Shown here piece after piece: positions 8,766 through 22,081 of a stretch of DNA of 23,743 nt. Below the pieces are notes generated by a model, which did not search any database, was not told the DNA's origin, and saw only the letters and a list, made by a program, of their open reading frames with translations. This stretch comes from a virus. The stretch's first letter is position 1. Every line of letters starts with the position of its first letter. The stretch lies in the IMG/VR virus record IMGVR_UViG_3300031673_000484, positions 1 to 23,743 of that record; one strand, written 5' to 3'. Made by a program: the position numbers and the translations under genes.

Positions 8766-8778
8766 CGCTAATAAAAGT

Positions 8779-8875
8779 TTATAACAATATGTATATGTAA
8801 TACAGCCAATTAAGTTTAGTTTTAAGTTGAAAATATGTGCAAGGCTGTACTACACATACATTCAACGGTGTACAT
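8779..8875. other. attC-like site a4
   Basis: Left TTATAAC AATATGTATATGTAATACAGCC. Reverse complement of the right arm: GTTGAATGTATGTGTAGTACAGCC. Arms match over about 20 bases with A/G differences. The right core has drifted (CAACGGTGTAC instead of GTTRRRY). Length is 97 bp. Confidence 0.68.
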
Positions 8876-9057
8876 AAGGTAATTGTGCAATCTGGGCAAG
8901 TCCCATTAGTCATTAAGATATGTTCGTTGCAAATTTCGCAAACCGCCACTTCGTTATTTCTAACAATAGATAAACGCAATATTTCGTTTTGCATTTTACC
9001 TTTTGTTAGTTCTCCTTTATTGTATCTGTCTACAATTTTTTGTATTTCTAATCTCAT
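8779..9057 (-). CDS. cassette A7: zinc-ribbon-like protein reading through an attC
   Basis: A 92-codon frame (MRLEIQKIVDRYNKGELTKG). The proper domain seems to end near residue 66 and contains VCEICNEHILMTNGTCPDC, a CxxC...CxxC zinc ribbon. The remaining 25 or so residues, including NWLYYIYILL, are a translation of attC-like site a4. The core mutation at 8864-8875 appears to have removed the usual stop codon, and the ORF now ends in the far core. The N-terminus is helical. It could be a small regulator or nucleic-acid-binding protein. It is the right-most cassette of array A, and no complete attC lies upstream of it. Confidence 0.55.
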   Translation of the reverse strand: MRLEIQKIVDRYNKGELTKGKMQNEILRLSIVRNNEVAVCEICNEHILMTNGTCPDCTITLCTPLNVCVVQPCTYFQLKTKLNWLYYIYILL

Positions 9058-9113
9058 AATACTGCGTTTATCATTAACATTAGCTAATTACTTTCATAAT
9101 ATTTTAGTTTAAG

Positions 9114-9380: not shown

Positions 9381-9872
9381 TTATCCCATTCCCTTTAGAA
9401 CTGCAAAGAATCTATAAGAAAGTAAATCTACTAAATCAATATCCCGGCCTAAAGATTCAATTATCTGTTTACGTAAAATGATTTCAAGTTTATTATTCTC
9501 TGAATATTTATTTTGCTTAACATGCTGTAATTCCTGTTTTAATTCATCATTAGGAAACTTACATTCAACAGATAAAGTACCGTTATTGATTGATTTAATG
9601 AAATAAAAATAAAGCTGATGTTTAAAATTTTTATAATTTTCTCTGCCTATTGGTTGTTTATCTGGTTTAATTCGTAAAGCTCCATAAAAATATTTATTAA
9701 ATTCACCGGTTGTATCGAAATAAACAACATCATTCATTGACTGTTTTAGCTTCATTACAGCAAGTGTTATCTTCTTTACATACTCGTTACTGTATTTCTT
9801 AAACTTAATCAATTTAAGGCCATCCCATACAGCAATTAATATATGTTTATCGGTTACTTTAATCGTTATCAT
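9381..9872 (-). CDS. stand-alone terminase-type RNase H-fold nuclease domain
   Basis: A 163-residue protein whose start overlaps the end of the large terminase by 14 bases. Its plan matches the C-terminal nuclease domain of terminase large subunits: a first strand (ITIKVTDKHILIAVWDG), then YFDTTG (51-56) with an acidic residue ending a strand, then NYKNFKHQLYFYFIKSINNG as in the usual 'N.R...Y..L...I..G' helix, P-N-D-E-L-K-Q-E-L, then K..I.E.LGRDIDLVDLLSY (135-153), like the terminal K......GrSpDlaDAl helix. The first-strand catalytic Asp is not obvious, so it may be inactive or serve as a partner domain. The large terminase next door already has its own nuclease domain. The assignment is pattern-based inference. 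Confidence 0.55.
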   Translation of the reverse strand: MITIKVTDKHILIAVWDGLKLIKFKKYSNEYVKKITLAVMKLKQSMNDVVYFDTTGEFNKYFYGALRIKPDKQPIGRENYKNFKHQLYFYFIKSINNGTLSVECKFPNDELKQELQHVKQNKYSENNKLEIILRKQIIESLGRDIDLVDLLSYRFFAVLKGMG

Positions 9873-11154
9873 TTTTAAATATATTGTTTAGATTGTTTTC
9901 ATTTATTAAATCACTTGGTGAAATTAAAGGATATTCATAATAAATAAAATATCCACCAGCCTCAGTTATATGATCAAATCCACTAGACTTATCAGGTATC
10001 CCATTCTTATCATTTGGCATTCTTTCTAATGCTTCCGTATATTCTGGGCAAGTACGAGTATTTACAAAATAGTTTTTATCTCCATTGCCATTGCAAAACA
10101 TCCTATTCATATTTTTTATCCGGTCTGTAACAACCGGGTTAGTTGACCTATATTTTACAATGAAACCAGCTTGTTTCAATTGCTCAATATCGGTAGTATC
10201 TGCATTAGTTGACCTATTCTTACCACTTGAATCTGGATATATTATAATTTTATTGTTTTTATAACGTTCTTTAATTACATTTATCATTGATTCAGTATCA
10301 TATACTTTGGTAATTTCATCAACTGCAATAGGTTGTGATCTTATAACATGAGTAACAGCGTGCATATTTCCTATATTAAAATCCATTCCAATATACAACG
10401 TATCATTTTCTTTAAAATACTCATCTGAATGATTTTCTTTCCGGTTAAATTTATAATATACCGTTCCTGATGTTAGGTTAACAAATTCACCGTGTAAATA
10501 AGCTTTTAATTGTATATCATCGTATAACTCCCGTAAGCCGTCAATATATCCATCACCTAAATTATCAGCATTATCTAAGGTATCTAATTGATATAACTTT
10601 TTATTGATATTAGCTTGTTTAACAAAAAAATTATACATATAAGCATAACCCTCCGGGGTGCTAACAAAGTCAATACAGTTCTTTGTTGACTTTTTAAATG
10701 AGTTCCGGCTGCTTATCCTTTTAATTGCATCAATCCTCTTATTAGGGTGAACAACATCAACCTCATCTATTAACGAATATCCGACTGAATAAGAAACAAT
10801 CCTGTCAGGTGTATCCATTGATCTCATCCATATCTCACCGTAAGGTGTTATTAACTTACTCTCTGCTTTATTGTGCTTATGTACGGTTTTTATGCTTTCA
10901 AATATATTATCAAATTTAGGAATTAACATATCTTCTATCAAACCATAGGTAGGTAAGTAATAAGCTATTGGAACTCCTGGGGCTTGCAGTAATTTAGTTA
11001 CAACTTTAACCGATGCGGCTAAACTCTTCCCACTCTGGTATCCTCCAACTATTCCTGAATGTAAATGTTTTGATTTTATAAAGTCCTTTTGAGTTTGATG
11101 TAAACGACTTAAATTTAACTTATTGTTTTTGTCGATATATATAATATCATTCAT
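9859..11154 (-). CDS. terminase large subunit (packaging ATPase-nuclease)
   Basis: A 431-residue protein. The ATPase domain has Walker A GGYQSGKS (37-44), Walker B SLIDEVD (127-133) and coupling motif STPEG (165-169). The nuclease domain follows from about residue 250 with acidic residues at MDFN (Asp258), YPDSSG (Asp308) and FDHITEAGGYF (Asp394), the usual three-Asp RNase H-like site. It pumps DNA into the prohead through the portal and cuts the concatemer. It overlaps the small subunit by 8 bases and the detached nuclease-like gene by 14 bases, forming one transcript. Length and motif order are typical. Confidence 0.95.
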   Translation of the reverse strand: MNDIIYIDKNNKLNLSRLHQTQKDFIKSKHLHSGIVGGYQSGKSLAASVKVVTKLLQAPGVPIAYYLPTYGLIEDMLIPKFDNIFESIKTVHKHNKAESKLITPYGEIWMRSMDTPDRIVSYSVGYSLIDEVDVVHPNKRIDAIKRISSRNSFKKSTKNCIDFVSTPEGYAYMYNFFVKQANINKKLYQLDTLDNADNLGDGYIDGLRELYDDIQLKAYLHGEFVNLTSGTVYYKFNRKENHSDEYFKENDTLYIGMDFNIGNMHAVTHVIRSQPIAVDEITKVYDTESMINVIKERYKNNKIIIYPDSSGKNRSTNADTTDIEQLKQAGFIVKYRSTNPVVTDRIKNMNRMFCNGNGDKNYFVNTRTCPEYTEALERMPNDKNGIPDKSSGFDHITEAGGYFIYYEYPLISPSDLINENNLNNIFKNDND

Positions 11155-11523: not shown

Positions 11524-12306
11524 TTATAAATTCAAATAATCTTCATTTGTCTCATTTCCAGATAAATAAACTCCTTTGTTATGAATTAACAAATCTTTTT
11601 TAATATAAAATTTATCATTCATATTTGATTGTCTTAATATTCTAACTGATTCAAATATAAATTTTGACCAATCAATTGATTTATCAATTCCTTTATAATT
11701 ATTTATTTTACCTATTTTAACATGATCAATAAACTCAACTACTTTTGATAGTAAATTTAATGACTGTTCTGGAAATATAACAGGCTCAAAACTTGCCCAG
11801 GTTTTTATCCCATTATTTGCTAATATTTCTAATATATTAATTCTTTCAATTGGTAAGGCTGCCCCAGATTCCCAATATAAAGAATCTTTATTATTGTCAA
11901 ATGTTAATGTAGCACCTATTTTAATTCTACTACCAAATAATTTAATAAGTTCTAAATCTTTTAATATATTTTTACCCCCCTTAGTAAGGATTGCCACTTT
12001 GTGATTATACTTATTTAAAATTGTTAATACCTTAGTAGTTATTTCAGGATTAATACCACAATAAGGGTCTCCGGTAAATGAAAGTAATATCTGATGACAT
12101 CCTTTATTTTTTTGTGCAGATTTTTCAAGTTCTTTAAATCCTTTTTCATCTGGAATAAAAATAATTTTATGATTATAATTACTATTAAATCGTCCTAACA
12201 TGTTGGGAACATAACAATACTTACAATTATGAGGACATCCTTTGTAATAATTCAGTGCTAATGGGCTATATTCTCTTGCCCTACCTGTTGGTTCATAAAT
12301 TTTCAT
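11524..12306 (-). CDS. radical SAM enzyme, SPL/SplB-like
   Basis: A 260-residue protein with the radical SAM cluster motif CPHNCKYC (Cys24, Cys28, Cys31; CX3CX2C) after the opening EPTGRAREYSPLALNYYKGC, typical of the COG1533 'DNA repair photolyase/SPL-like' group. SFTGDPY (76-82) is the expected strand-2 motif of that group. Further down are ILTKGG and WASFEPVI. The enzyme should bind a 4Fe-4S cluster and make a 5'-deoxyadenosyl radical. The substrate is unknown: repair of a DNA lesion or modification of a base, tRNA or phage protein are all possible. It lies just upstream of the terminase genes, with a gene-free leader of 181 bases (12307-12487) in which I see no clear promoter or RNA. Confidence 0.85.
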   Translation of the reverse strand: MKIYEPTGRAREYSPLALNYYKGCPHNCKYCYVPNMLGRFNSNYNHKIIFIPDEKGFKELEKSAQKNKGCHQILLSFTGDPYCGINPEITTKVLTILNKYNHKVAILTKGGKNILKDLELIKLFGSRIKIGATLTFDNNKDSLYWESGAALPIERINILEILANNGIKTWASFEPVIFPEQSLNLLSKVVEFIDHVKIGKINNYKGIDKSIDWSKFIFESVRILRQSNMNDKFYIKKDLLIHNKGVYLSGNETNEDYLNL

Positions 12307-14356: not shown

Positions 14357-14587
14357 TTAATAATTATCGGTTACAAGTTTTAAACCATTAAATTTATAAA
14401 TTTTTAATTTTCGTTTTATTGCCCCCTGATAGCTTATATTTTCATCTTTGGCATATTGTGATAATGTTTTAATATTTAAAATAATAGCAACGTGTTCAAA
14501 AATTTGAACCAAATCATCATTATTTAGCTCTCCCTTATGAATACATGCAAATAATCTATCTTTTATAATAAGCGATCTATCAGACAT
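14357..14587 (-). CDS. HTH-like small protein, 76 aa
   Basis: The C-terminal half reads TLSQYAKDENISYQGAIKRK followed by LKIYKFNGLKLVTDNY. SQYAKDENISYQGAIKR looks like a helix-turn-helix (alanine before the turn, S-Y-Q-G at the start of the recognition helix) of the excisionase/transposon-regulator type. The N-terminal half is helical (LNNDDLVQIFEHVAIILNIK). It is the first A+T-rich phage gene downstream of cassette array B, whose left-most core lies 41 bases upstream of the ATG. Confidence 0.6.
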   Translation of the reverse strand: MSDRSLIIKDRLFACIHKGELNNDDLVQIFEHVAIILNIKTLSQYAKDENISYQGAIKRKLKIYKFNGLKLVTDNY

Positions 14588-14627
14588 TTATGTTAAGTTT
14601 AAAATTTTGAACTGACTTTATACAATT

Positions 14628-14634
14628 GTTAGCG
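14628..14634. other. solo core site GTTAGCG at the left end of array B
   Basis: GTTAGCG containing the stop of the first cassette gene. The preceding ACTGACTTTATACAATT has no visible complementary left arm, so this is either a truncated attC or an attI-like landing site. Confidence 0.4.
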
Positions 14635-14901
14635 GCAAGCGAAGAAAGGCTTCGGCATTGGCTTCCAATATATTATTTTATTACTTGGTGGTGGACTGCT
14701 TTTATATCTATTTTCCCACTTCTCACTACCATCGGTAAATTTAAAGTGCATTAAATGGTGTATTGTTCTGTTTTCAAGCATTACAATATATTCTGCTGTC
14801 ATATCTGTTTGCGGTGGATAAAAAATATATGAACGCCAGCCGCTAACAAGCAATATAAAAAATGCCTTAAAGTGTGCTAAAATTGAAGTTCTTGTTTTCA
14901 T
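14629..14901 (-). CDS. cassette B1: DUF551-like protein
   Basis: I choose the ATG at 14901 (MKTRTSILAHFKAFFILLVS). A later in-frame ATG (MTAEYIVMLE) would avoid attC sequence, and a longer frame to 14976 is attC-derived and rejected. After SGW the body has strands (EYIVMLENRTIHHLMHFKFT) and ends IIYWKPMPKPFFACR. The W(K/M)P(M/L)P.P ending with a C-terminal CR matches the shape of DUF551-type small phage proteins. The stop TAA lies in the solo core at 14628. If the ATG at 14901 is used, the first 18 or so codons lie in the loop and left arm of the cassette's own attC (b1). Confidence 0.55.
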   Translation of the reverse strand: MKTRTSILAHFKAFFILLVSGWRSYIFYPPQTDMTAEYIVMLENRTIHHLMHFKFTDGSEKWENRYKSSPPPSNKIIYWKPMPKPFFACR

Positions 14902-14971
14902 ATTTACTTTATTTTTAATTGATAAATTAGTTCTTTGTAGTCGGCACTTTTCATATTGCCGACCATTAGGC
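14841..14971. other. attC-like site b1
   Basis: Left CGCTAAC AAGCAATATAAAAAATGCC. Reverse complement of the right arm: TAATGGTCGGCAATATGAAAAGTGCC in order. Arms GCAATATAAAAAATGCC and GCAATATGAAAAGTGCC differ only by two A/G changes. The right core is ATTAGGC. Length is 131 bp. Confidence 0.8.
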
Positions 14972-15304
14972 AACATAATGCGCTACTGCTGCCATCCAAA
15001 GTATATGTATAACGTTATCAACTATCACATGCCCCCAAAATTTGCTAAAATCATTCTGGAATTTACCAGTCACCCTGCAAAACCAAGCTACAAAATGTGT
15101 TCGGTCTTGTATGTAATGTTGTACTGCAATAAGCAATAGTTGTATTAAACTTAGTTCTGTAAATATAAACGGTATCATGTACGTTAAAATGTGTACACTA
15201 CACGCAAAGTCGCTTTTCTTTTTGTTACCTGCCATCCAATCATTTTGTAGCAAGTAGTCACCTATTAAGTGGGCTAATATCCAAGGCAAATTTAGTCCTA
15301 TCAT
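14966..15304 (-). CDS. cassette B2: DUF3307-family membrane protein
   Basis: The ATG at 15304 (MIGLNLPWILAHLIGDYLLQ) lies 10 bases from the core of site b2; longer forms enter the attC. The opening LAHLIGDYLLQNDWMAGNKK is the signature of DUF3307, small membrane proteins with H...D..LQ..W and K. It is followed by VHILTYMIPFIF and LLLIAVQHYIQDRTHF, then a last span HVIVDNVIHILWMAAVAH. Expect about four membrane segments in the inner membrane, with conserved His and Asp residues within them. The biochemical role is unknown. The stop TAA overlaps the ATTAGGC core of b1. Confidence 0.8.
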   Translation of the reverse strand: MIGLNLPWILAHLIGDYLLQNDWMAGNKKKSDFACSVHILTYMIPFIFTELSLIQLLLIAVQHYIQDRTHFVAWFCRVTGKFQNDFSKFWGHVIVDNVIHILWMAAVAHYVA

Positions 15305-15311
15305 AATTACG

Positions 15312-15444
15312 TTGCCTAACAATAAATATAGCAAATAGCCAAGTTAGGCGTGCATTTGTCACTATCTGCGTGTTTATAATCATTTTACTGTATTCAAAGT
15401 TTGTGCTATTTATGGCTACTTGCCATATTCTCAACGTTAGCAAA
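15312..15444. repeat. repeat 3, copy 1 (attC b2)
   Basis: About 130 bp nearly identical to 18223-18352. The repeat is the attC-like site itself, with little beyond it, so two cassettes share one recombination-site lineage while carrying unrelated genes. Confidence 0.9.
15314..15442. other. attC-like site b2
   Basis: Left GCCTAAC (a perfect RYYYAAC) then AATAAATATAGCAAATAGCCA. Reverse complement of the right arm: GCTAACGTTGAGAATATGGCAAGTAGCC in order. TATAGCAAATAGCCA pairs with TATGGCAAGTAGCCA. The right core is GTTAGCA. Length is 129 bp. Confidence 0.82.
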
Positions 15445-15464
15445 CATTAAAACGATTTGCTAAC
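15436..15464. other. empty cassette B3, a deleted relative of B17
   Basis: Between the two cores only about 15 bases remain: GTTAGCAAACATT joined to AAAACGATTTGCTAAC. Exactly these two end sequences flank the gene of the last cassette (21847-21859 and 22066-22081). This cassette therefore looks like a copy of B17 with the gene removed. Confidence 0.6.
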
Positions 15465-15558
15465 ACGGTATATAACCAATGCTTACCGTGTAGCTTCGTA
15501 TTAAGTTTCTGCAAGTGCTTTAAAAATTTTGCCAACGCTCTTTAATTTTTTTCAAAAA

Positions 15559-15990
15559 TTATTTTTTAGTTTCATCACAAATATTATATTTTGGACAATA
15601 AGTACATGGCTGTGGAGGTTTTAAAAAATCATCATTTTTTACAGTAAAAAATTCATATAAGTCTTTGCATAAATATCTATCACACTTTAAAGGCATTCTT
15701 TCACCTCCATTTTTAATTATTGATTTTATTCTTAATTTACCATAACGCCAAGGTGATTCTAATTTATATGAATACATTTGTATATTTTTTACTTTACAAT
15801 AAAAATCTATACTTAAATACTCACCATCTTCAGATGTTTCAGTTTCTTTTATTAAATGTTTACAAAAATTAAAACACGAATGTTTATTATTAGGATTTTC
15901 TTTACATGCTTTTTCGTGTTTTATGCAATCATTTGACCTTTTATAAATTTTATTACAGTAATCGCATTTAAAAGCTTCTATTTTTTCCAT
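15559..15990 (-). CDS. zinc-finger protein, 143 aa, inside an attC loop
   Basis: The N-terminus FKCDYCNKIYKRSNDCIKHE has a C2H2-type finger (C-x2-C-x12-H or C-x8-C-x3-H spacing). More Cys pairs follow (SCFNFCKHL, LKCDRYLCKDL) and the C-terminal CTYCPKYNICDETKK, giving over twelve Cys residues, so the protein likely binds two or more zinc ions. It may bind nucleic acid. Codon use is as A+T-rich as the phage core and unlike adjoining cassettes. It lies wholly between the arms of attC-like site b3. Its upstream region contains an AACAGGA/TCCTGTT palindrome (16037-16052). Confidence 0.68.
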   Translation of the reverse strand: MEKIEAFKCDYCNKIYKRSNDCIKHEKACKENPNNKHSCFNFCKHLIKETETSEDGEYLSIDFYCKVKNIQMYSYKLESPWRYGKLRIKSIIKNGGERMPLKCDRYLCKDLYEFFTVKNDDFLKPPQPCTYCPKYNICDETKK

Positions 15991-16036
15991 AATTTATTTA
16001 TATTAATGTTAAAAAATGCCCCCTAAAAATTTTTAA

Positions 16037-16052
16037 AACAGGAACTCCTGTT
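16037..16052. promoter_or_regulatory. palindrome AACAGGA-n2-TCCTGTT
   Basis: Perfect 7-base arms around two bases, about 47 bases upstream of the zinc-finger ORF start. It is shaped like an operator. As RNA the loop would be too tight for a good terminator, although T-rich sequence follows on the minus strand. Confidence 0.4.
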
Positions 16053-16154
16053 CTCGTATCGAAATTTGTAGGTTTATTCGCACTGGTCATATACCCACCG
16101 TTATGTACAAGCGCAAAGCAGTACATCTAATAAAGTTCAGTGGGAGTAATTTTA

Positions 16155-16343
16155 TTATTTTTTCTTCCTACCTCCTCTTTTAACATCAAGTTTTCTAACT
16201 TCTAATTGCCAATCTAAATGTATCGGAAATTTTTTACCTTTTAAAGTATGATAATTATAACCTAATTCATCACACATAATTTTTAAATTACCAAACGGCA
16301 TAATTTGCTTTTTATACCAATCAATATATAGTATTGTTTTCAT
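16155..16343 (-). CDS. hypothetical basic protein, 62 aa
   Basis: Starts MKTILYIDWYKKQIMPFGNL and continues KIMCDELGYNYHTLKGKKFP, ending in the very basic RKLDVKRGGRKKK. CDELGYNYHTLKGKKFP resembles a helix-turn-helix without wings, so DNA binding is possible. It overlaps the upstream zinc-ribbon minigene by 23 bases. The A+T-rich codon use matches the phage core, although it lies in cassette array B. It is the last of three coupled genes driven by the promoter at 16688-16720. Confidence 0.55.
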   Translation of the reverse strand: MKTILYIDWYKKQIMPFGNLKIMCDELGYNYHTLKGKKFPIHLDWQLEVRKLDVKRGGRKKK

Positions 16344-16473
16344 TTTTATTTTCCCAAAATATTATTGATGATTCAAATGGATATATAACTCTTGCTTGAT
16401 GTTTTCCACATTTAATACATTTTCTTTCAGAAGGAGTTATCATAATCCATTTATGTCTATGTAATAATTTCAT
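16321..16473 (-). CDS. minigene with CxxC knuckle, 50 aa
   Basis: A frame of 50 codons: MKLLHRHKWIMITPSERKCI followed by KCGKHQARVIYPFESSIIFW. The segment RKCIKCGKHQ carries one CxxC pair, with HRH upstream that could complete a zinc site. Its ATG overlaps the stop of the upstream gene (ATGA at 16470-16473), and its end overlaps the next gene by 23 bases. That packing is the reason to accept it. Function unknown. Confidence 0.55.
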   Translation of the reverse strand: MKLLHRHKWIMITPSERKCIKCGKHQARVIYPFESSIIFWENKNENNTIY

Positions 16474-16661
16474 ATTTGTGTAGCTTTTAAATTACTTAAA
16501 TCTGGAAAATTTATTAAACAATTGAGTTTATTAATCGCTCTGTGTTTTGCATTATCTTTAGTTGTGGCATCAATAAACATTGTTTTTCCTTCTGGAAATA
16601 ATTTTTGAGCAAGTTTACAATTTCGCCCCTTACTACTTAATTCTACTGCAAATGTTTTCAT
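16470..16661 (-). CDS. hypothetical protein, 63 aa
   Basis: Starts MKTFAVELSSKGRNCKLAQK and contains FPEGKTMFIDATTKDNAKHR followed by AINKLNCLINFPDLSNLKAT. It looks like a small alpha/beta domain (strand, TTKDNAKHRAINKL helix). The start lies 27 bases after the -7 box of a Bacteroidetes-type promoter (16688-16720), making it the first gene of a three-gene A+T-rich operon within the array. No family recognised. Confidence 0.58.
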   Translation of the reverse strand: MKTFAVELSSKGRNCKLAQKLFPEGKTMFIDATTKDNAKHRAINKLNCLINFPDLSNLKATQI

Positions 16662-16687
16662 ATATTATGTGATTTTTTTAATTATAC

Positions 16688-16720
16688 GTAAATATAGTTA
16701 TTATGTTTCTAATAAACAAG
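16688..16720 (-). promoter_or_regulatory. promoter of the A+T-rich operon in cassette B4
   Basis: Minus strand CTTG, 20 bases, TATATTTAC: the same spacing and -7 box as the promoter at 6941-6973, one base off the Bacteroidetes consensus at each end. It drives 16661-16155. Confidence 0.55.
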
Positions 16721-16829
16721 AATTATAGTGTTTATTTTTCTATTTTAATTAAAATATTTTTGCCATCACACAAAAAATAATAAAATTACCTTTCTTCGTA
16801 GCGTGCTAAGTGGCTGATAATGCGCCAGT

Positions 16830-16883
16830 ACATAACACGCAATAAAGCACATTAAAACGATGCCTTATTGCTGTCCGTTGTAC
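16830..16883. other. attC-like site b4 (shortest, 54 bp)
   Basis: Left ACATAAC ACGCAATAAAGC. Reverse complement of the right arm: GTACAACGGACAGCAATAAGGC in order. The right core is GTTGTAC. The size is close to the classic short attC. Confidence 0.72.
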
Positions 16884-16893
16884 GCAATAAAAA

Positions 16894-17100
16894 TTACTTA
16901 CGTACTAGTATATTTAATGGTTCTTTGCCTTTTCCTATCAAATATTTATCTACCGCAATTGCAGCTTCTCTTTCTGTATCATAAGTTTTTCTGCAAACAT
17001 TTGGCAGTGTTATCATCCAGTAATTTTTATCAGTAGTTTGAGCACACTGCTGTACATATTTGTATTTACTTTTTCCGTATTTTGTTGTCTGTTGTGCCAT
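16894..17100 (-). CDS. cassette B5: AP2-like DNA-binding protein, 68 aa
   Basis: The ATG at 17100 (MAQQTTKYGKSKYKYVQQCA) is used; the longer frame to 17235 is translated attC. After the first strand (KYKYVQQ), NYWMITLPNVCRKTYDTERE leads to AAIAVDKYLIGKGKEPLNIL. The helix pattern eAAiAvDk..i...gkep.lN is that of AP2/ERF-type domains, three-strand DNA binders found in plants and also in phage and homing-endonuclease proteins. Here it stands alone, without nuclease. It is a complete single-gene cassette between sites b4 and b5. Confidence 0.7.
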   Translation of the reverse strand: MAQQTTKYGKSKYKYVQQCAQTTDKNYWMITLPNVCRKTYDTEREAAIAVDKYLIGKGKEPLNILVRK

Positions 17101-17119
17101 AAGTCGTAATTTTAAAAGC

Positions 17120-17215
17120 GTACAACACGCTGTATAGTTAATAAGCCGGATAGTTTTGTGCGTTGATTTGGGGCTGTGTGGTCGGCTTACATAACCATAC
17201 AGCCATCCATTATAA
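17120..17215. other. attC-like site b5
   Basis: Left GTACAAC ACGCTGTATAGTTAATAAGCCG. Reverse complement of the right arm: TATAATGGATGGCTGTATGG then TTATGTAAGCCG. Arms match over about 19 bases with A/G differences. The right core is CATTATA. The stop of 17210-17503 is within it. Confidence 0.75.
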
Positions 17216-17503
17216 ACAAGCGTAAATAAGCACACCTAAGATTAAACCAACTACAAAACCTACAATTCTGTTATTTATTGGATCGTTCCAAAAACGCCAG
17301 TTTATAACATTTTGTAAATGCAAGCCGTTTGCGCTCGCATCAGCTTTCACAGCCGCACTATCTAAACTATCAAATACGGTGTCTTTAATCTCATCCCATA
17401 TTTCAGGTTCGTGTTTTTTAATCAACCTTAATAATTTAAAGTAAGTTTCTCCATTCATTGAAACTCCGCTAATTGTCACTTTTACATCTTTAATATCTGC
17501 CAT
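17210..17503 (-). CDS. cassette B6: tail-anchored membrane protein, mostly inside its own attC
   Basis: A 97-residue protein. Residues 1-55 are soluble (MADIKDVKVTISGVSMNGET, LLRLIKKHEPEIWDEIKDTV), and residues 79-96 are a membrane span (NRIVGFVVGLILGVLIYACL). The left core of site b6 (17302-17308) falls at codons for NVIN (about 65-68), so roughly two thirds of the gene lies in the loop between the arms of the site. The stop overlaps the core of b5. Such an arrangement keeps the gene whole only if the attC at its 5' end belongs to the same cassette. Function unknown. Confidence 0.68.
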   Translation of the reverse strand: MADIKDVKVTISGVSMNGETYFKLLRLIKKHEPEIWDEIKDTVFDSLDSAAVKADASANGLHLQNVINWRFWNDPINNRIVGFVVGLILGVLIYACL

Positions 17504-17588
17504 CGCTCGGTTATTTATAATTTATATTCACGTTCATAATTTTGTGCTATTTTCAACAACGGCCAGCACTTACAAGTTGCCGTTAGCG
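17302..17588. other. attC-like site b6 with coding loop (about 287 bp)
   Basis: Left TTATAAC ATTTTGTAAATGCAAGCCG. Reverse complement of the right arm: CTAACGGCAACTTGTAAGTG then CTGGCCGTTG. The right core is GTTAGCG. The loop encodes the N-terminus of gene 17210-17503. TTGCCGTTAGCGGCAA at the right end is itself a perfect hairpin. Confidence 0.68.
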
Positions 17589-17888
17589 GCAAGCTGGCCT
17601 CCACAATTCAAATTTATCCATTAATCCGTCATCCCTCATCACCTTACCTACTCCTATATATTCAGCTTCTACCCAATCTATATTTCCTTTATATCTAATT
17701 CTATCACCTATTTCTGGCTTTTCATCTTCAATATTCAGCCAGCCGCTAACATGCGGTATAGGTAATTTGCCGTCCTCCGATTTAAGTTTGTGCAAATCTG
17801 CCAAAAAATTATCAACTAATTCTTTTGTTTCAAATCCTTCCAATGCTTTAGAAAGATTTTCATACTTTGTTATTAATTTCTGTATCAT
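17583..17888 (-). CDS. cassette B7: DUF551-domain protein
   Basis: A 101-residue protein. Residues 1-45 are a helical lead-in (MIQKLITKYENLSKALEGFE). From HVSGWLNIEDEKPEIGDRIR the typical DUF551 opening GW(I/L)...D..P..G is seen, and the end FELWRPACR closes it in the family's W.P style. DUF551 proteins are small, of unknown function and common in phages. The codons for VS are the left core of site b7 (GTTAGCGGCTGG on the minus strand), and the N-terminal 48 or so residues lie in its loop. The stop TAA is inside the core of b6. Confidence 0.72.
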   Translation of the reverse strand: MIQKLITKYENLSKALEGFETKELVDNFLADLHKLKSEDGKLPIPHVSGWLNIEDEKPEIGDRIRYKGNIDWVEAEYIGVGKVMRDDGLMDKFELWRPACR

Positions 17889-17968
17889 AATTTTTTTAAG
17901 TTAAGTATTTCAATTCAAGTCTGGTGCGGTGCGTGGGGCAAACATACCCATACCGCCAGCCGTTAGGC
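17744..17968. other. attC-like site b7 with coding loop (225 bp)
   Basis: Left CGCTAAC ATGCGGTATAGGTAATTTGCC. Reverse complement of the right arm: TAACGGCTGGCGGTATGGGT then ATGTTTGCC. The right core GTTAGGC is a perfect GTTRRRY. The loop holds the start of gene 17583-17888. Confidence 0.75.
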
Positions 17969-18214
17969 ACAATGGTAAGTTGCACCTTTCTTCCATTCCT
18001 CCACACGCTTTTGTGCTGCCTCTAATGTTTTAAAGCTTTTACTAAATGGTTGTAGTATCGGCCAAGTTTGTATCACACCACCCCACGCATTTGTTCTGTA
18101 CCAACTCCATTCTTTGCGTTTCCACCAAAGCATTCCTTTTTCTTCATATCCTCGTATTTGTATCTCAAATGCTCCGCAATATTCTCTAATTCTATATTCT
18201 ACTTCTTTTTTCAT
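17963..18214 (-). CDS. cassette B8: Trp-rich hypothetical protein, 83 aa
   Basis: Starts MKKEVEYRIREYCGAFEIQI, then KGMLWWKRKEWSWYRTNAWG and PFSKSFKTLEAAQKRVEEWK. It is a small beta-sheet plus C-terminal helix protein rich in Trp and basic residues. The layout (strand, WW...W, sheet, A...V..W helix) is that of small phage proteins that resemble DUF-type KTSC or WGR-like folds, but I cannot assign one. The stop is in the perfect core GTTAGGC of b7, and the ATG lies 11 bases before the left core of b8. Confidence 0.65.
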   Translation of the reverse strand: MKKEVEYRIREYCGAFEIQIRGYEEKGMLWWKRKEWSWYRTNAWGGVIQTWPILQPFSKSFKTLEAAQKRVEEWKKGATYHCA

Positions 18215-18222
18215 AAACCACT

Positions 18223-18352
18223 GTGCCTAACAATAAATATAGCAAATAGCCAAGTTAGGCTTGTATTTGTCACTATTTGCATGTTTATAATCATTTTACT
18301 GTATTCAAAGTTTTGTGCTATTTATGGCTACTTGCCATATTATCAACATTAG
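18223..18352. repeat. repeat 3, copy 2 (attC b8)
   Basis: Near-identical to 15312-15444 over about 130 bp. Scattered single-base differences show that the copies are not very recent. Confidence 0.9.
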
Positions 18353-18354
18353 CA
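18225..18354. other. attC-like site b8
   Basis: Left GCCTAAC (perfect RYYYAAC) then AATAAATATAGCAAATAGCCA. The right arm is close to that of b2, and the right core is ATTAGCA (one base off). Length is 130 bp. Confidence 0.8.
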
Positions 18355-18355
18355 A

Positions 18356-18607
18356 CTATAAATTGCCTTCAATAAATCTATCTACGTGTCTTTCTGGTAT
18401 GTACAGGTGCATTTCCTCGTCCTCATTAATCCATTCACGAAAGGCAATTAACAGTTCCCTTCGGTTGCTAACAACGGGTATAGCAAATAATTTTACTATC
18501 TTTTCTGTGTAATTGTTAATACTTTCTTGTATTTCACCAATTGTATTATCTCTCTCGGTAATCTGATTCTCAAATTCAATTAATAATTTTTTTACTTCTT
18601 TTTTCAT
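18356..18607 (-). CDS. cassette B9: hypothetical protein, 83 aa, start inside attC
   Basis: Residues 1-45 are coiled-coil-like (MKKEVKKLLIEFENQITERD). The C-terminal part NRRELLIAFREWINEDEEMH followed by LYIPERHVDRFIEGNL matches a motif I know from Bacteroidetes phage small proteins ('F..W...E...hIPE..V..F'). The left core of site b9 encodes the VS before NRRE, so the N-terminal 45-50 residues lie in that site's loop. The stop is next to the core of b8. Function unknown; DNA binding or complex assembly are possible. Confidence 0.65.
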   Translation of the reverse strand: MKKEVKKLLIEFENQITERDNTIGEIQESINNYTEKIVKLFAIPVVSNRRELLIAFREWINEDEEMHLYIPERHVDRFIEGNL

Positions 18608-18668
18608 AATATAGTTTTTTAGTGTTTCAAATCCGTAAAATTACATTGCCATACCCAAAACGTTATAA
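18466..18668. other. attC-like site b9 with coding loop (203 bp)
   Basis: Left TGCTAAC AACGGGTATAGCAAATAATTTTAC. Reverse complement of the right arm: TATAACGTTTTGGGTATGGC then AATGTAATTTTAC. The right core is GTTATAA. The loop holds the start of gene 18356-18607. Confidence 0.72.
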
Positions 18669-18902
18669 AACATTTGCCAACCGCACTATTGTTGTCAATT
18701 TAATTTCTTCTTTTTTCAGTGGACATTCATTTGGGATATTTCCGTCACGGCTATTCTCGTGTGTTATTATCATACACTTGTATGGGTCTTTAAGCTTTTC
18801 AAAATATGGATGACCACATTTCATAGCATTTCCTGATGTCGTGTAGAATGGACATTCATTCCAACATCCTTTTACTTTTTTGGTTTTCTTTATAATTTCC
18901 AT
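18663..18902 (-). CDS. cassette B10: Cys-rich protein, 79 aa
   Basis: Starts MEIIKKTKKVKGCWNECPFY, then MKCGHPYFEKLKDPYKCMII and ENSRDGNIPNECPLKKEEIK. The motifs CxxxCPFY, MKCGHP and IPxECPL recur in small phage and bacterial proteins of unknown function. Five to six Cys and a His suggest a metal site. The stop TAA is part of the right core of b9. The cassette ends form an extended inverted repeat (GTTATAAAAC at 18662 and GTTTTATAAC at 18913). Confidence 0.65.
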   Translation of the reverse strand: MEIIKKTKKVKGCWNECPFYTTSGNAMKCGHPYFEKLKDPYKCMIITHENSRDGNIPNECPLKKEEIKLTTIVRLANVL

Positions 18903-18915
18903 CGTTAAAAACGTT

Positions 18916-19042
18916 TTATAACAACGTATAAAATTAATTGCTACGTTATTGGGTTATTTAATGTATTTACTTTTAATCAATTTTTAGTAGTTTGCGAAAG
19001 TCGTGCATCTAACACGCAACTAATCTTATACCAACGTTATAC
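18916..19042. other. attC-like site b10
   Basis: Left TTATAAC AACGTATAAAATTAATTGC. Reverse complement of the right arm: TATAACGTTGGTATAAGATT then AGTTGC. Two A/G differences. The right core is GTTATAC. Length is 127 bp. Confidence 0.78.
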
Positions 19043-19110
19043 ACAAGCGTAAGAAAGTTTCGTTCATTTAATCAACACCTGTGCAACCTTGCCATAATTA
19101 TTTTTTGCCT
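19031..19110. repeat. repeat 1, copy 2 (cassette 3' end)
   Basis: Near-identical to 6370-6448. It covers the right core of b10, the shared untranslated 3' segment, and the stop of gene 19098-19286. Confidence 0.9.
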
Positions 19111-19286
19111 TCGCTCTTACAATTTTTCAAATTGTTTAGGAATTGGTTTAATGGTTCTTCCCAATGTTTAGCAAGTTTTTGAGAGCCGTTAACAGCTTTT
19201 ACTAAAGTAGTGTCGGGCATCTTTAATTGTCGTTCTATTCCTCTAAGGCTTAACGAGTCTTTATTTTTTCTTAGCCATTCTAACAT
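19098..19286 (-). CDS. cassette B11: HTH-like protein, 62 aa
   Basis: Starts MLEWLRKNKDSLSLRGIERQ and continues LKMPDTTLVKAVNGSQKLAK, then HWEEPLNQFLNNL. SLRGIERQLKMPDTTLVKAVNGSQKL has the rhythm of a helix-turn-helix, with a 'P.(T)TL..A(V/I).G' recognition helix. It overlaps the upstream gene's stop (ATGTTAG at 19280-19286), so the two are coupled. It is a likely autoregulator, because 21-bp direct repeats lie over the promoter upstream of the operon (19679-19727). Confidence 0.7.
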   Translation of the reverse strand: MLEWLRKNKDSLSLRGIERQLKMPDTTLVKAVNGSQKLAKHWEEPLNQFLNNLKNCKSEGKK

Positions 19287-19657
19287 GAAGCTCCGCTTAA
19301 ATAGTTAGCCATATTGCATGTATCAAATAATGATGCAGGTTTTTTAATCCTTTCATTATTTTCTTCTAATCCTTTTAGGATCCATTCTAATTTTTGAATG
19401 TCTTGTATTTGCTCCATTATCGTAATTCTGCCTTTACTTTCTCCTTCGCTACCAGTTTTATGAACTAAACACACAACACCACCAACCGAAACATAAGCAC
19501 CTATTATTTCATATTGGATTAAATCATCTTCAATATAATCAACCCAACCGCAACTACAATAAGCGTTTGTTTTTATACTATTATTAATAATACGCTCAGC
19601 CTCATTACACATTAGCTTGATAAGGGCTTGTTTTGCTTCTTTAATTTCAGTTTTCAT
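19280..19657 (-). CDS. cassette B11: hypothetical protein, 125 aa
   Basis: Starts MKTEIKEAKQALIKLMCNEA. A Cys cluster (NAYCSCGWVDYIEDD), strands (GAYVSVGGVVCLVHKTGSEG) and a C-terminal helix (IQDIQKLEWILKGLEENNER) are visible. It is the first gene of a two-gene cassette with its own promoter. With an HTH protein downstream this could be a toxin-antitoxin-like pair or a phage-type regulatory pair, but no toxin fold is recognised. It takes the place occupied by an unrelated three-gene module in the matching cassette frame of array A. Confidence 0.6.
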   Translation of the reverse strand: MKTEIKEAKQALIKLMCNEAERIINNSIKTNAYCSCGWVDYIEDDLIQYEIIGAYVSVGGVVCLVHKTGSEGESKGRITIMEQIQDIQKLEWILKGLEENNERIKKPASLFDTCNMANYLSGASC

Positions 19658-19678
19658 AATCTTAGTTTTTCGTTAAAC

Positions 19679-19727
19679 AATATCCAAATATAAGGGTAAT
19701 ATATTTAATATCCTAATATAAAGGTAA
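19679..19727 (-). promoter_or_regulatory. promoter with two 21-bp direct repeats (operator)
   Basis: Two direct repeats, 19679-19699 and 19707-19727, 28 bases apart (about 18 of 21 identical: AATATCCAAATATAAGGGTAA and a variant). On the minus strand the first contains TATATTTG, a complete -7 box. The -33 position is TTAG. The ATG lies 28 bases from the box. The repeats overlap the promoter, as expected for a repressor operator. Confidence 0.6.
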
Positions 19728-19733
19728 AAAAAG

Positions 19734-19890
19734 AACCCCTCCCTAAAAAATAATTATTACTTCCGTGTTTCAAATGTAGGTAAGTGATTAAACGCCAGTG
19801 TATAACAACGCATAAAAATAAAAGCCTTTGGAAGCTTATTATTTCAAATTAACGTTGTAGTGTCGGCTTCAATTCTTATGCAAACCGTTA
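19734..19890. repeat. repeat 2, copy 2 (cassette 5' end plus attC)
   Basis: Near-identical to 6991-7149, including the attC-like site b11 and the non-coding segment before the operon promoter. Confidence 0.92.
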
Positions 19891-19893
19891 GGT
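19800..19893. other. attC-like site b11
   Basis: Same arms as site a2 (GTATAAC AACGCATAAAAATAAAAGCC), but the right core here is GTTAGGT, a perfect GTTRRRY. Length is 94 bp. It contains the stop of the Lar-like gene. Confidence 0.82.
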
Positions 19894-20103
19894 TTCATTT
19901 GCCACCGCCACACGGTTATCAGACTCCCACGCCTCAATTGCAAAATGCTGTGACCGTATGTAGTTTTCATGACTACGATAGCCACATTTAGAACATTCAA
20001 GCCTAAAAGCAACACCGTTAAACGAACTGCCATTGTCTCCACATTCTTTGTCTATTTCTGCTTCTCCTCCGCATTTTTTACATGGTATTTTTTCTGTACT
20101 CAT
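19888..20103 (-). CDS. cassette B12: Lar-like restriction-alleviation family protein
   Basis: The ATG at 20103 (MSTEKIPCKKCGGEAEIDKE) is used; the longer form to 20145 runs into attC. CKKCGG (8-13), ECSKCGY (about 39-45) and HFAIEAWESDNR match the Lar-type layout: PC..CGg, a central segment, C..Cg, and eAi.aW..r. Lar proteins of Rac and phages protect DNA from type I restriction, and most family members are uncharacterised zinc ribbons. The stop TAA is inside the perfect core GTTAGGT. Of all cassette genes this is the clearest link to host-phage conflict, by family inference. Confidence 0.78.
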   Translation of the reverse strand: MSTEKIPCKKCGGEAEIDKECGDNGSSFNGVAFRLECSKCGYRSHENYIRSQHFAIEAWESDNRVAVANET

Positions 20104-20136
20104 AATCTTGTTTTTACCCCACCGCACAAAACGAAA

Positions 20137-20266
20137 ACCTAACAATTTATATATTGCAAATTTTTTAGTAATTGTAGGTGAGTGGTTATTAATTTATTTT
20201 ATCTCTAATTGTTAATTTATCTCATTCTGGTTGCAAAATTCGACAACATATAAGTTGCCGTTAGCA
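20137..20266. other. attC-like site b12
   Basis: Left ACCTAAC (perfect RYYYAAC) AATTTATATATTGCAAATTTT. Reverse complement of the right arm: CTAACGGCAACTTATATGTT then GTCGAATTTT. The right core is GTTAGCA. Length is 130 bp. Confidence 0.8.
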
Positions 20267-20277
20267 GCCATACAAGG

Positions 20278-20454
20278 CTACTTTTCATATCTTATTGCTC
20301 TGTCTTTCATTATGTGCCCACACTCAATGCATGGCTTTTCAAACCACACTTTACCATCATGCTTACATCCTTTACATACAGTTATTTCAACCTTAGTAGT
20401 ACGGCTGCTAACAATATGTTTAGGTAATTGGGATTTTGTGTTATCTTGTTTCAT
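20278..20454 (-). CDS. cassette B13: zinc-ribbon minigene, 58 aa
   Basis: A 58-codon frame starting MKQDNTKSQLPKHIVSSRTT and continuing KVEITVCKGCKHDGKVWFEK, then PCIECGHIMKDRAIRYEK. Two CxxC pairs (CKGC and CIEC) 14 residues apart form a zinc ribbon. The left core of site b13 encodes VSS (residues 15-17), so the first 14 residues lie in that site's loop. The stop lies 12 bases after the core of b12. It may be a small nucleic-acid-binding or protein-binding adaptor. Confidence 0.68.
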   Translation of the reverse strand: MKQDNTKSQLPKHIVSSRTTKVEITVCKGCKHDGKVWFEKPCIECGHIMKDRAIRYEK

Positions 20455-20533
20455 TGCATTTCAATTTTAAGTTTATCAATATTTGGTAGGGTAGTGCAAG
20501 TAATCCCAACTACCCAAACACTCAACATTAGGG
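20406..20533. other. attC-like site b13 with coding loop
   Basis: Left TGCTAAC AATATGTTTAGGTAATTGGGATT. Reverse complement of the right arm: TAATGTTGAGTGTTTGGGTA then GTTGGGATT. Three A/G differences in a row. The right core is ATTAGGG. Length is 128 bp. The loop holds the start of gene 20278-20454. Confidence 0.78.
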
Positions 20534-20537
20534 CGAA

Positions 20538-20858
20538 TTAAGCCGACTTAATAAGTTTAAGGCTATCTTCACCAAAACCCGAAAAAGAATTGAAATTATA
20601 GCAGGTGTTTGCTTTTACAAATGCTTTCTGCCAAAGTTCCATCCCTTTGCTTCCAAGTACATATAATGGAGTTCCGTCACAATCTCTAACGCATCCAATT
20701 ATATACAGTCTCATTCCTGCATATTCACAATCTTCATCCCAAGCTATAATTTCAACCAAGTCATCTACTTTATACTTGTGCTGTTTAGCGTTATTTTCTT
20801 CTCTATAAGTTTTCCCAGTTTTCGGGTTTTTAAGGTCTGCAATATTTATAAGTTCCAT
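20538..20858 (-). CDS. cassette B14: hypothetical protein, 106 aa
   Basis: Starts MELINIADLKNPKTGKTYRE. The middle segment KVDDLVEIIAWDEDCEYAGM, then LYIIGCVRDCDGTPLYVLGS looks like a small SH3-like beta barrel (a V.D.Ve i...). The end is SGFGEDSLKLIKSA. The layout resembles phage proteins of unknown function with a KOW/SH3-like core, which is only an impression. It is a complete single-gene cassette between b13 and b14. Confidence 0.62.
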   Translation of the reverse strand: MELINIADLKNPKTGKTYREENNAKQHKYKVDDLVEIIAWDEDCEYAGMRLYIIGCVRDCDGTPLYVLGSKGMELWQKAFVKANTCYNFNSFSGFGEDSLKLIKSA

Positions 20859-20875
20859 ATCTAAAAATTAACTCG

Positions 20876-20972
20876 CCCTAACAATAAATAAACCCAATAT
20901 GGCAGGGGCAAGGTTCTGCCATTGTTTAAAGTTCGGTAGGCTGCCAAACTGTGTTTATTAAAACCGTTGTGT
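20876..20972. other. attC-like site b14
   Basis: Left CCCTAAC AATAAATAAACCCAATATGGCAG. Reverse complement of the right arm: AACGGTTTTAATAAACACAG then TTTGGCAG. The right core is GTTGTGT. Length is 97 bp. Confidence 0.75.
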
Positions 20973-20978
20973 GTAATA

Positions 20979-21272
20979 CTACTTACTAAGCTCAATTAAG
21001 CAATTCTTTAGTATTTCAAACGCATCCTCTTGCGCTGCTTCTGTTGTGGAAAATCCAGCCCCACGCTCACTCGGTTCATGCAAGCTTTCTTCTAACACTT
21101 GCAATGCTTTTTCGGCAGCATCTTCTATTGCGTTATCCACACGCTCACGCTCTTCAATTTCTTCCATAGCTATTCCATAACCTTCCCAGTTATCTACTCC
21201 AGCGCATTCCAACGCACGCATTTTAGCTTCAATCAACTCTAATTCTTTTAATCTACTTTTTGAAATTTCCAT
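20979..21272 (-). CDS. cassette B15: acidic helical protein, 97 aa
   Basis: Starts MEISKSRLKELELIEAKMRA. It is very acidic and helical throughout (MEEIEERERVDNAIEDAAEK, ALQVLEESLHEPSERGAGFS, AAQEDAFEILKNCLIELSK). Acidic helical phage proteins include DNA mimics that block restriction or CRISPR enzymes, but composition alone does not establish such a role. Higher G+C content than phage core genes is evident in its codons. It sits cleanly between b14 and b15. Confidence 0.62.
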   Translation of the reverse strand: MEISKSRLKELELIEAKMRALECAGVDNWEGYGIAMEEIEERERVDNAIEDAAEKALQVLEESLHEPSERGAGFSTTEAAQEDAFEILKNCLIELSK

Positions 21273-21303
21273 TTTATTTAAGTTTTGCGGCTTAAAGTAC
21301 TAC

Positions 21304-21397
21304 ACACAACAACGTATATAGTTAAAAAGCCATGTTAATATTCGTTCATTTAATCAGCGTTTGCAGTTGGCTTTCAAACCATATACCAACGTTAGCG
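21304..21397. other. attC-like site b15
   Basis: Left ACACAAC AACGTATATAGTTAAAAAGCC. Reverse complement of the right arm: CTAACGTTGGTATATGGTTT then GAAAGCC. The right core is GTTAGCG. Length is 94 bp. The loop contains TTCGTTCATTTAATCA, also found in repeat 1. Confidence 0.8.
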
Positions 21398-21404
21398 GTA
21401 ATTG

Positions 21405-21785
21405 CTACACCACTATCGGCTCTTCGCAAAATGGACATTCGCCAATCTGTATTACTTTTGTTTTGTAGAAGCTCCACGCACTAGCCCTATCAATTTCACT
21501 TTCGGTTATTGGTGTATACCAGTTTCCAGAAACTTCGCCTGTAATATCATAATATCGTCCATTGTATTTAGTTATTACGTGGTCTTTTTCTTTGCTTATA
21601 AAAGCCTCACTTTCTGGGAAGAATGTTTTTAGCAACAAGTGAAATTGATAACACGCACCATTCATATAAATCATTTCAATATACCTATCTGTTTGGCGAA
21701 GTGCGTTAATAAACCGCAACATACCGCTAACAATACCTATATTTAATTGGGCGTTTACTGCCTCTTCAAACTCTTTTGCTTCCAT
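21405..21785 (-). CDS. cassette B16: conserved phage-type protein, 126 aa
   Basis: Starts MEAKEFEEAVNAQLNIGIVS. The body (GMLRFINALRQTDRYIEMIY, MNGACYQFHLLLKTFFPESE, YNGRYYDITGEVSGNWYTPI) is a pattern I recognise from conserved but uncharacterised phage proteins ('MNGGCY.FH..LK..FP.A.aY....HV.T.i.g.YYDI.G'). It ends with a zinc-knuckle-like GECPFCEEPIVV. The HV.T...GRYYDI core hints at a peptidase-like or nuclease-like fold, but catalysis is unproven. The left core of b16 encodes VSG (19-21), so the first 18 residues lie in the site's loop. Confidence 0.72.
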   Translation of the reverse strand: MEAKEFEEAVNAQLNIGIVSGMLRFINALRQTDRYIEMIYMNGACYQFHLLLKTFFPESEAFISKEKDHVITKYNGRYYDITGEVSGNWYTPITESEIDRASAWSFYKTKVIQIGECPFCEEPIVV

Positions 21786-21853
21786 TTTGCTTTACTTTAT
21801 ATTGATAATTTAGTGCTATTAATGCCCAACTAAACATAGCCGAGCCGTTAGCA
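21725..21853. other. attC-like site b16 with coding loop
   Basis: Left CGCTAAC AATACCTATATTTAATTGGGC. Reverse complement of the right arm: GCTAACGGCTCGGCTATGTT then TAGTTGGGC. Arms match over about 18 bases with A/G differences. The right core is GTTAGCA. Length is 129 bp. The loop holds the start of gene 21405-21785. Confidence 0.8.
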
Positions 21854-21858
21854 AACAT

Positions 21859-22062
21859 TTATAAACCGAATCGTTCAGGTTTATAAATTTCGTGCTTCCA
21901 ATCTTTTAAATGAGTTTCAGTACTCTTTTTAATTTTTGCGTGTGCAGGTATTTTTTGGTCAGTAAGCAAACATTCGAATATCAAGCCAGTAAATACCTTA
22001 GGAGCTGTATAGTCTTCTAACCAGTAAACTATTCCTATTTCTAAATTTTGTGTGTAGTGCAT
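21859..22062 (-). CDS. cassette B17: hypothetical protein, 67 aa
   Basis: The ATG at 22062 (MHYTQNLEIGIVYWLEDYTA) is preferred; the GTG at 22083 lies in the core. Visible features are a small beta-rich region (KVFTGLIFECLLTDQKIPAH) and a charged tail (KIKKSTETHLKDWKHEIYKP). No family recognised. It is the right-most cassette and the first to be transcribed after the DnaB gene and its small neighbour. Its ends are the same as those of the empty cassette B3 at 15436-15464. Confidence 0.6.
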   Translation of the reverse strand: MHYTQNLEIGIVYWLEDYTAPKVFTGLIFECLLTDQKIPAHAKIKKSTETHLKDWKHEIYKPERFGL

Positions 22063-22074
22063 AATAAAACGATT

Positions 22075-22081
22075 TGCTAAC
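22075..22081. other. half attC-like site at the right end of array B
   Basis: TGCTAAC followed by ACAACCTATACACC has no complementary right arm before the phage gene at 22172. The array is therefore truncated here, at its phage boundary. Confidence 0.5.

Follow-up and report, generated by a model that had tools for sequence, protein, structure and literature searches.

The stretch of DNA analysed here (the window: 23,743 nucleotides (nt), positions 1 to 23,743 of the viral record IMGVR_UViG_3300031673_000484) contains, at 14628-22081, a long run of small genes and hairpins that is very probably an integron-type cassette array of a lineage seated in Bacteroidota chromosomes, carried by a phage without an integrase, that is, as an integrase-less cluster of attC sites (CALIN). 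The run was described by a chain model in which gene units, the ends of which are complementary to each other across the gene, alternate with hairpins, the arms of which are complementary within the hairpin. Under this model, 17 gene units and 16 attC-like hairpins follow one another unbroken from 14628 to 22081, with a chain score of 167.7 compared with at most 9.5 in eight shuffles of the same interval, and the unit ends next to the core match at 8 of 8 positions in all 17 units. Stricter settings recovered the identical chain in L003, and no chain of four or more links was found under these settings in three shuffles of L003 or in the antisense strands of L003, L030 and L033 (L003 and L004 label stretches of the phage genome introduced below; other L numbers denote further loci, L033 being phage G005). 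Of the 35 adjacent pairs, 19 are complementary across the gene, whereas this holds for 1.15% of the 3911 control pairs and, inside palindromes, for 1 of 64; because the unit ends are complementary in this manner, the two half-sites, R' and R'', would pair in a circular cassette.

An earlier note on this DNA, made from the sequence alone, had proposed 16 palindromes alternating with small co-oriented genes over this interval, and the chain, scoring far above its shuffled counterparts, bears this out. The ends described there (YYYAAC-like followed by AA, and (C)GTTA) also agree with what we observe: in the array hairpins R'' reads YAAC-A[AC] and R' ends in (C)GTTA, with the AAC-AA end on the + strand, antisense to the cassette genes, which are co-oriented on the - strand. 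The placement of stops in or next to the core is likewise upheld, the nearest stop in the 16 non-empty units lying within the core in seven, 8-18 nt off in seven, and 55 and 62 nt off in the other two. As claimed, the hairpin arms are self-complementary and for the most part unrelated between sites; the latter part fails for hairpins 2 and 8, which are near copies. Most hairpins are about 130 or about 94 nt long, the exceptions being three with longer loops (279, 217 and 195 nt from core to core), one that bears an open reading frame (ORF) and one of 46 nt. The cores read YAAC/GTTR, the outer bases of the boxes often departing from RYYYAAC/GTTRRRY; the exact pattern GTTRRRY-N18-RYYYAAC has no match across the record, and the hairpins have no match in Rfam. 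As in folded integron sites, R'' and R' boxes are present and the cassettes end in sites; the junctions suggest a cut at G|TT. Little was detected by a scanner built on R''-R' pairing inside the palindrome, the pairing actually spanning the gene; a second scanner, requiring paired inner arms only, recovered the array. Separately, a second, looser set of similar hairpins lies between the portal side and the terminase (window positions ~5880-9085), where the covariance model R1, described below, reports six sites and there is no four-link chain.

The window belongs to a phage. Over two compared stretches that cover all of it, it differs by six bases from IMGVR_UViG_3300031578_000046 (53,888 bases; G001, hereafter G1), which is probably a complete genome because its ends overlap (177 bases, 99.4% identity). 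Ten G1 proteins were compared with PHROGs, yielding terminase large subunit, portal, major head protein, DnaB, exonucleases and virion structural protein, with two of the ten lacking a match. The proposal of an integron-like array inside a phage genome is thus supported by these phage genes, by the near-identical contig with overlapping ends, by the matched unit ends, and by the breaks of homology at cores described below. The search for an IntI-type recombinase that the earlier note had called for came back empty: the whole G1 genome has no match to TIGR02249 or PF00589, hence no tyrosine recombinase, and five related phage records, some of which are fragments, have no PF00589 match. With 16 chain hairpins detected by our own models and no integrase in G1, the array corresponds to a CALIN. 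The relatives of the G1 helicase include phages of Cellulophaga and Riemerella, so that a Bacteroidota host is likely. The helicase and the terminase have only distant matches among annotated phages, and in IMG/VR the helicase matches a single locus, the near-identical contig. The terminase large subunit (9859-11154) is closest (~40%) to phages of Gammaproteobacteria and Caulobacter, whereas the helicase points to Bacteroidota phages.

The elements of the array are as follows, in window coordinates (G2, G3 and G5 are other phages).
14566-14628, + strand: docking (attI-like) element, ending G|TT; one of four copies in G1, the others being at L003:17070, L004:2869 and L004:5123 (position of the G of the core)
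14628-14847, - strand: gene unit 1; ORF 14629-14901 or shorter, start possibly within hairpin 1
14845-14967, + strand: hairpin 1; a copy 78% identical in G2/G3 and 74% in G5
14965-15320, - strand: gene unit 2; DUF3307 protein 14966-15304 (PF11750, 6.2e-10)
15318-15438, + strand: hairpin 2; near copy of hairpin 8
15436-15464, no strand: unit 3; empty, 29 nt, without a gene
15462-16102, + strand: hairpin 3; 641 nt, its loop containing the whole ORF 15559-15990 (- strand); adjoins the empty 29-nt unit 3
16100-16836, - strand: gene unit 4; ORFs 16155-16343, 16321-16473 and 16470-16661
16834-16879, + strand: hairpin 4; 46 nt
16877-17126, - strand: gene unit 5; ORF 16894-17100, without a Pfam match
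17124-17211, + strand: hairpin 5
17209-17584, - strand: gene unit 6 (17209-17308) and hairpin 6 (17306-17584); ORF 17210-17503, start within the hairpin
17582-17964, - strand: gene unit 7 (17582-17750) and hairpin 7 (17748-17964); ORF 17583-17888, start within the hairpin
17962-18350, - strand: gene unit 8 (17962-18231) and hairpin 8 (18229-18350); ORF 17963-18214
18348-18664, - strand: gene unit 9 (18348-18472) and hairpin 9 (18470-18664); ORF 18356-18607, start within the hairpin
18662-19038, - strand: gene unit 10 (18662-18922) and hairpin 10 (18920-19038); ORF 18663-18902
19036-19889, - strand: gene unit 11 and hairpin 11 (19804-19889); ORFs 19098-19286 and 19280-19657
19887-20262, - strand: gene unit 12 (19887-20143) and hairpin 12 (20141-20262); Lar-like zinc-ribbon protein 19888-20109 (PF14354, 1.7e-4, under the cut-off; phrog_599, 6.2e-6)
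20260-20529, - strand: gene unit 13 (20260-20412) and hairpin 13 (20410-20529); ORF 20278-20454, start within the hairpin
20527-20968, - strand: gene unit 14 (20527-20882) and hairpin 14 (20880-20968); ORF 20538-20858
20966-21310, - strand: gene unit 15; T7 Gp5.9-like RecBCD inhibitor 20979-21272 (PF25708, 2.8e-14)
21308-21393, + strand: hairpin 15
21391-21849, - strand: gene unit 16 (21391-21731) and hairpin 16 (21729-21849); YunG-like ORF 21405-21785 (PF24591, 4e-20), start within the hairpin
21847-22081, - strand: gene unit 17; ORF from 21859

Comparison of related phages, also suggested in the earlier note, revealed exchange at the core between phages with different core genes. G1, G2, G5, G6, G4 and P12002L differ in most of their proteins, only seven G1 ORFs having a blastp match within this set (three of these in array units, and one being the methyltransferase of another cluster), although the phages have blocks of DNA in common. 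The docking element is present in G1 in four copies, each joined at the same base to a different cassette, with the far ends of the cassettes matching at 8 of 8 positions; three of the four copies open a chain of at least four links. The Gp5.9-like unit (unit 15) is 94% identical between G1 and G5, with homology extending from GTT to a few bases past AAC, and both flanking hairpins differ. Within G1, the units at 19036-19889 of the window and at 6375-7148 have both ends and the right-hand hairpin in common, and differ in the genes between and in the left-hand hairpins. The empty unit 15436-15464, together with the left part of its right-hand hairpin, is 92% identical in G5. Moreover, certain hairpins recur between phages while the genes next to them do not, namely G1 5233-5361 with G2/G3 and G5, and G1 50360-50477 with G2 and G3. 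Two of the sharing cases fit a cassette of the form R'-gene-R''-hairpin, and the remaining ones break at R'' too.

With respect to the anatomy of the sites, 36 hairpins were aligned, 21 from phages and 15 from chromosomes. Standard pairing accounts for 90.8% of the cells at the 17 proposed pairs; doubly changed cells number 159 compared with 50.7 after shuffling, and covariation is 0.625 compared with 0.135. Since the scanner had chosen the rows by their paired arms, these values characterise the family and cannot serve as independent evidence for it. An A.C mispair at columns 23/118 is kept in 35 of the 36 hairpins and a second one, at 18/124, in 25 of 35; both are G.T on the opposite strand. 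The same hairpins, nine of which come from the window, were used to build our own covariance model, R1, the E-values of which are rough. At E<=0.05, R1 reports 16 sites in the window, all on the + strand, ten of them inside 14628-22081. At this threshold it has no match in L004, L006 (P12002L), L007 (TJE1), L120 (M16-3), G4 or G6, and it misses L003:17779-17908, a row of its own training set. In P12002L, the scanner gave three rows at 16.5, with about one expected. Similar-looking hairpins lie beside - strand genes of this Polaribacter phage (L006, 38876-38939 and 39119-39248), on which R1 is silent; attC of P12002L has been shown by others to be active.

The same family of sites is widespread in Bacteroidota chromosomes. 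A genome scan with the protein encoded at 19280-19657 yielded no match, and therefore an alignment of the phage methyltransferase was used as the query; this returned loci with similar hairpins, mostly from Bacteroidota, with a scanner row at 17 of 80 loci, one of which (L085) is a simple repeat. Of 149 genomes from a single Bacteroidota class (that of Marixanthotalea marina), 115 have R1 sites, as does 1 of 13 control genomes of other phyla. The 149 genomes are the fair sample; a set of 13 genomes was picked for scanner hits. In this picked set, Flavobacterium croceum has at least 83 sites, Winogradskyella marina at least 53 and Marixanthotalea marina at least 32, the counts per genome being lower bounds (150 or 23 candidates scored); a picked metagenome-assembled genome (MAG) of Saprospiraceae has no site among the candidates scored by R1.

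In these chromosomes, the sites are associated with a recombinase. Matches to TIGR02249, denoting IntI-like recombinases, were found in all 13 picked genomes, none of them over the cut-off; because all 14 control genomes match as well, the presence of a match says little. In a first set of 17 recombinase loci, a site lies no more than 5 kb away in six (L134, L135, L136, L137, L139 and L146). A search with the Marixanthotalea enzyme detected a relative at E<=1e-40 in 84 of the 149 class genomes, and sites occur in 81 of these 84 compared with 34 of the 65 genomes without it (Fisher p=7.6e-11, a value that is too small because the genomes are related by descent and kinship is uncorrected). The upstream flank is complete in every one of the 30 best recombinase loci (L182-L211). 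Downstream, 14 of them run out within 1.4 kb, seven of these within 130 nt, and 10 of the other 16, with full flanks, have a site downstream on the recombinase strand. A motif like TATAAACAAG|TTA, ending AG|TT, lies downstream of the recombinase in 24 of the 30 best loci, with 0.8 expected, providing the chromosomes with an attI-like site; the phage counterpart of attI is the docking element only, without an integrase. In all eight loci that have both the motif and a first hairpin, the ends of the first cassette match at 8 of 8 positions. Four of the 30 contigs stop 2-3 nt past the G of the motif, as a first cassette varying between cells would cause.

Five chromosomal recombinases score 199-218 bits against TIGR02249 (cut-off 265), in two stretches, compared with 394 bits in one stretch for a true IntI; the same five reach 209-235 bits against NF040815 (XerA type, cut-off 220), which, with PDB 4a8e and 5hxy, represents the best family match of the chromosomal enzymes. 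In the PDB ranking for the chromosomal recombinase, 4a8e comes first, IntI4 (2a3v) second and 5hxy third. The IntI-specific insert is absent in 17 of 17 aligned chromosomal recombinases. Thus, the IntI with an additional domain that marks classical integrons is found neither in phage G1 nor among these enzymes. Xer enzymes act on dif-like sites. Unlike them, the recombinases described here sit at arrays of hairpin-ended cassettes.

The orientation of the cassette genes distinguishes the phages from the chromosomes. Antisense to the site are 32 of 33 phage genes (44 phage sites: 41/44 non-window R1 phage rows, plus three scanner sites), whereas 60 of 70 chromosomal genes lie sense to it (112 chromosomal sites of 125 rows, 13 being excluded for odd length, truncation or isolation, at loci picked as site-rich), compared with 1 of 33 in phages; the classical arrangement, in which a cassette gene and its site have the same strand, is accordingly that of the chromosomes and not of the phages. 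Because its genes are almost all antisense to the site, the phage array is no plain copy of a chromosomal array. In the same samples, unit ends match in 61 of 72 adjacent chromosomal units and in 21 of 38 phage units, a threshold that random pairs reach in about 3%. Since several genes start inside the upstream hairpin, expression is probably unlike that of classical cassettes.

We propose that the phage array is probably served by an enzyme of the host. A cassette would comprise a gene unit and the hairpin that follows it on the right (on the + strand, R'-gene-R''-hairpin); the host recombinase would cut G|TT in folded single-stranded sites and, during infection, might insert, shuffle or remove phage cassettes, such that the phage could store small accessory genes in the array, some of them anti-defence. 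On balance, we moderately favor a broader view, namely that an integron lineage with a minimal integrase devoid of the IntI-specific domain occurs in the majority of genomes sampled from one Bacteroidota class, where it is missed by tools that require this domain, and that the phages infecting these hosts draw on it as a plug-in bank for small genes (some anti-defence) moved by the host enzyme, with docking sites of their own and a phage-specific cassette pool in which the genes are reversed.

Several observations weigh against these proposals. No recombination has been observed, the case being built on sequence; the phage has no recombinase of its own, and its host is known by inference only. 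The hairpins fold only slightly more strongly than shuffles (mean z about -1.4 for the top and about -1.7 for the bottom strand), and the advantage of the bottom strand holds for 26 of the 36 rather than for all. At E<=0.05, R1 reports nothing in L004 and passes over six of the chain's 16 hairpins, and a MAG labelled Clostridiales (G009), picked for scanner hits, carries at least three sites. In the first set of 17 recombinase loci, eleven lack a site in the adjacent 5 kb, and the sequence of five of these runs out within ~320 nt downstream. The attI-like pattern was written after viewing the same 30 loci in which it was then counted. Furthermore, exchange takes place at R'' too (the Gp5.9 unit without either hairpin, hairpins without genes), which the one-site mechanism of integrons does not predict, and in G2 a YunG-like gene (77%) lies outside an evident cassette, with homology ending at the G1 R'' box.

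Conceivably, the array is a dead relic, in which pieces of a chromosomal array were gained by chance or by homologous recombination and the cassettes are immobile in the phage. The lack of an integrase in G1 and the degenerate and long-loop hairpins of the chain would fit this, and off-target or illegitimate recombination has been suggested by Qi et al. (PMC9892861) as a source of phage attCs; however, a relic is unlikely given that single units are common to different phages and their homology breaks at the cores, that the four docking copies are each followed by a cassette of their own, and that phage genes, in contrast to those of chromosomal arrays, nearly always lie antisense to the site. 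That the hairpins are small mobile palindromes of the REP/MITE type, moved by another transposase independently of the genes, appears highly improbable: G1 5233-5361 and 50360-50477 are indeed shared without neighbouring genes, but the arms differ between most sites and yet covary, matched ends are particular to each gene unit, and the chromosomal arrays track one recombinase type and the attI-like motif. Less credible still is an RNA-element role for the hairpins (as terminators, attenuators or leader promoters), with the matching ends as a by-product. Several ORFs do start within a hairpin and the mRNA strand carries G.T in place of the A.C pairs; against this stand the lack of an Rfam match, matching ends that span genes, homology that stops at GTT/AAC, the shared strand of site and gene in 60 of 70 chromosomal cases, and the association with a recombinase.

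An integron-type array in a phage is in itself not unprecedented. Qi et al. (2023; PMC9892861) describe CALINs in phages, methyltransferase cassettes included, and recombination of five of six tested phage attCs by IntI1. The present case is alike in its attC-type clusters without an integrase and its methyltransferase cassettes, and differs in its 16 hairpins in a single array along with further clusters, its docking copies, its antisense genes and a site family tied to Bacteroidota; R1 is silent on TJE1 and P12002L, two phages of that study. With chromosomal IntI integrons (PMC9024848, PMC9668308), the chromosomal loci have in common a tyrosine recombinase by an attI-like site, a long array and folded sites with TAAC/GTTA cores, whereas the recombinases here lack the IntI insert and fall below the TIGR02249 cut-off, the outer arms of the sites are longer and the A.C mispair is kept. 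As in the integrons of Treponema (PMC3607928), the integrase is transcribed towards attI and the array; the Treponema integrons were called by IntI genes, unlike the enzyme here, which has no insert.

Bacteroidota are counted among integron-bearing phyla in reviews (PMC8618304, PMC9668308), and intI genes with the extra domain are reported from the Bacteroidetes/Chlorobi group (PMC2426708). The IntegronFinder 2.0 paper (PMC9024848) gives one complete integron, that of Salinibacter ruber, for Bacteroidetes proper; the integrase step of IntegronFinder requires the IntI-specific domain (PMC9668308), and a Tenacibaculum genome was called integron-free by this program (PMC10013915). Our literature search found no paper on the integron lineage proposed here, with most subscription papers and bioRxiv preprints outside its coverage, so that one may exist in print. 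If our proposal is correct, long Bacteroidota arrays accompanied in many genomes by a matching recombinase and by an attI-like motif would alter the picture of integrons in this phylum, the need for an IntI-specific domain would be put in question, and phages would trade single accessory genes by a site-specific route. The exactness of the junctions renders these predictions directly testable.

As for the cargo, the recognisable products of the array are the Gp5.9-like protein (PF25708), a weakly Lar-like protein, a YunG-like protein of unassigned role and a DUF3307 protein; most of the cassette proteins tested have no family match. In another cluster of G1 (L003, 17914-18624), an N6/N4 DNA methyltransferase lies between two hairpins, and its 38-60% identical relatives are found beside similar hairpins in another phage and in Bacteroidota genomes. 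Overlapping ends (126 identical bases) and several cassette chains are likewise found in the phage G005 (L033; L034-L035), the core proteins of which do not resemble those of G1. Finally, beside the packaging genes of the window, the ORF at 11524-12306 contains a CxxxCxxC stretch that, by the impression gained from reading it, has a radical-SAM-like look.

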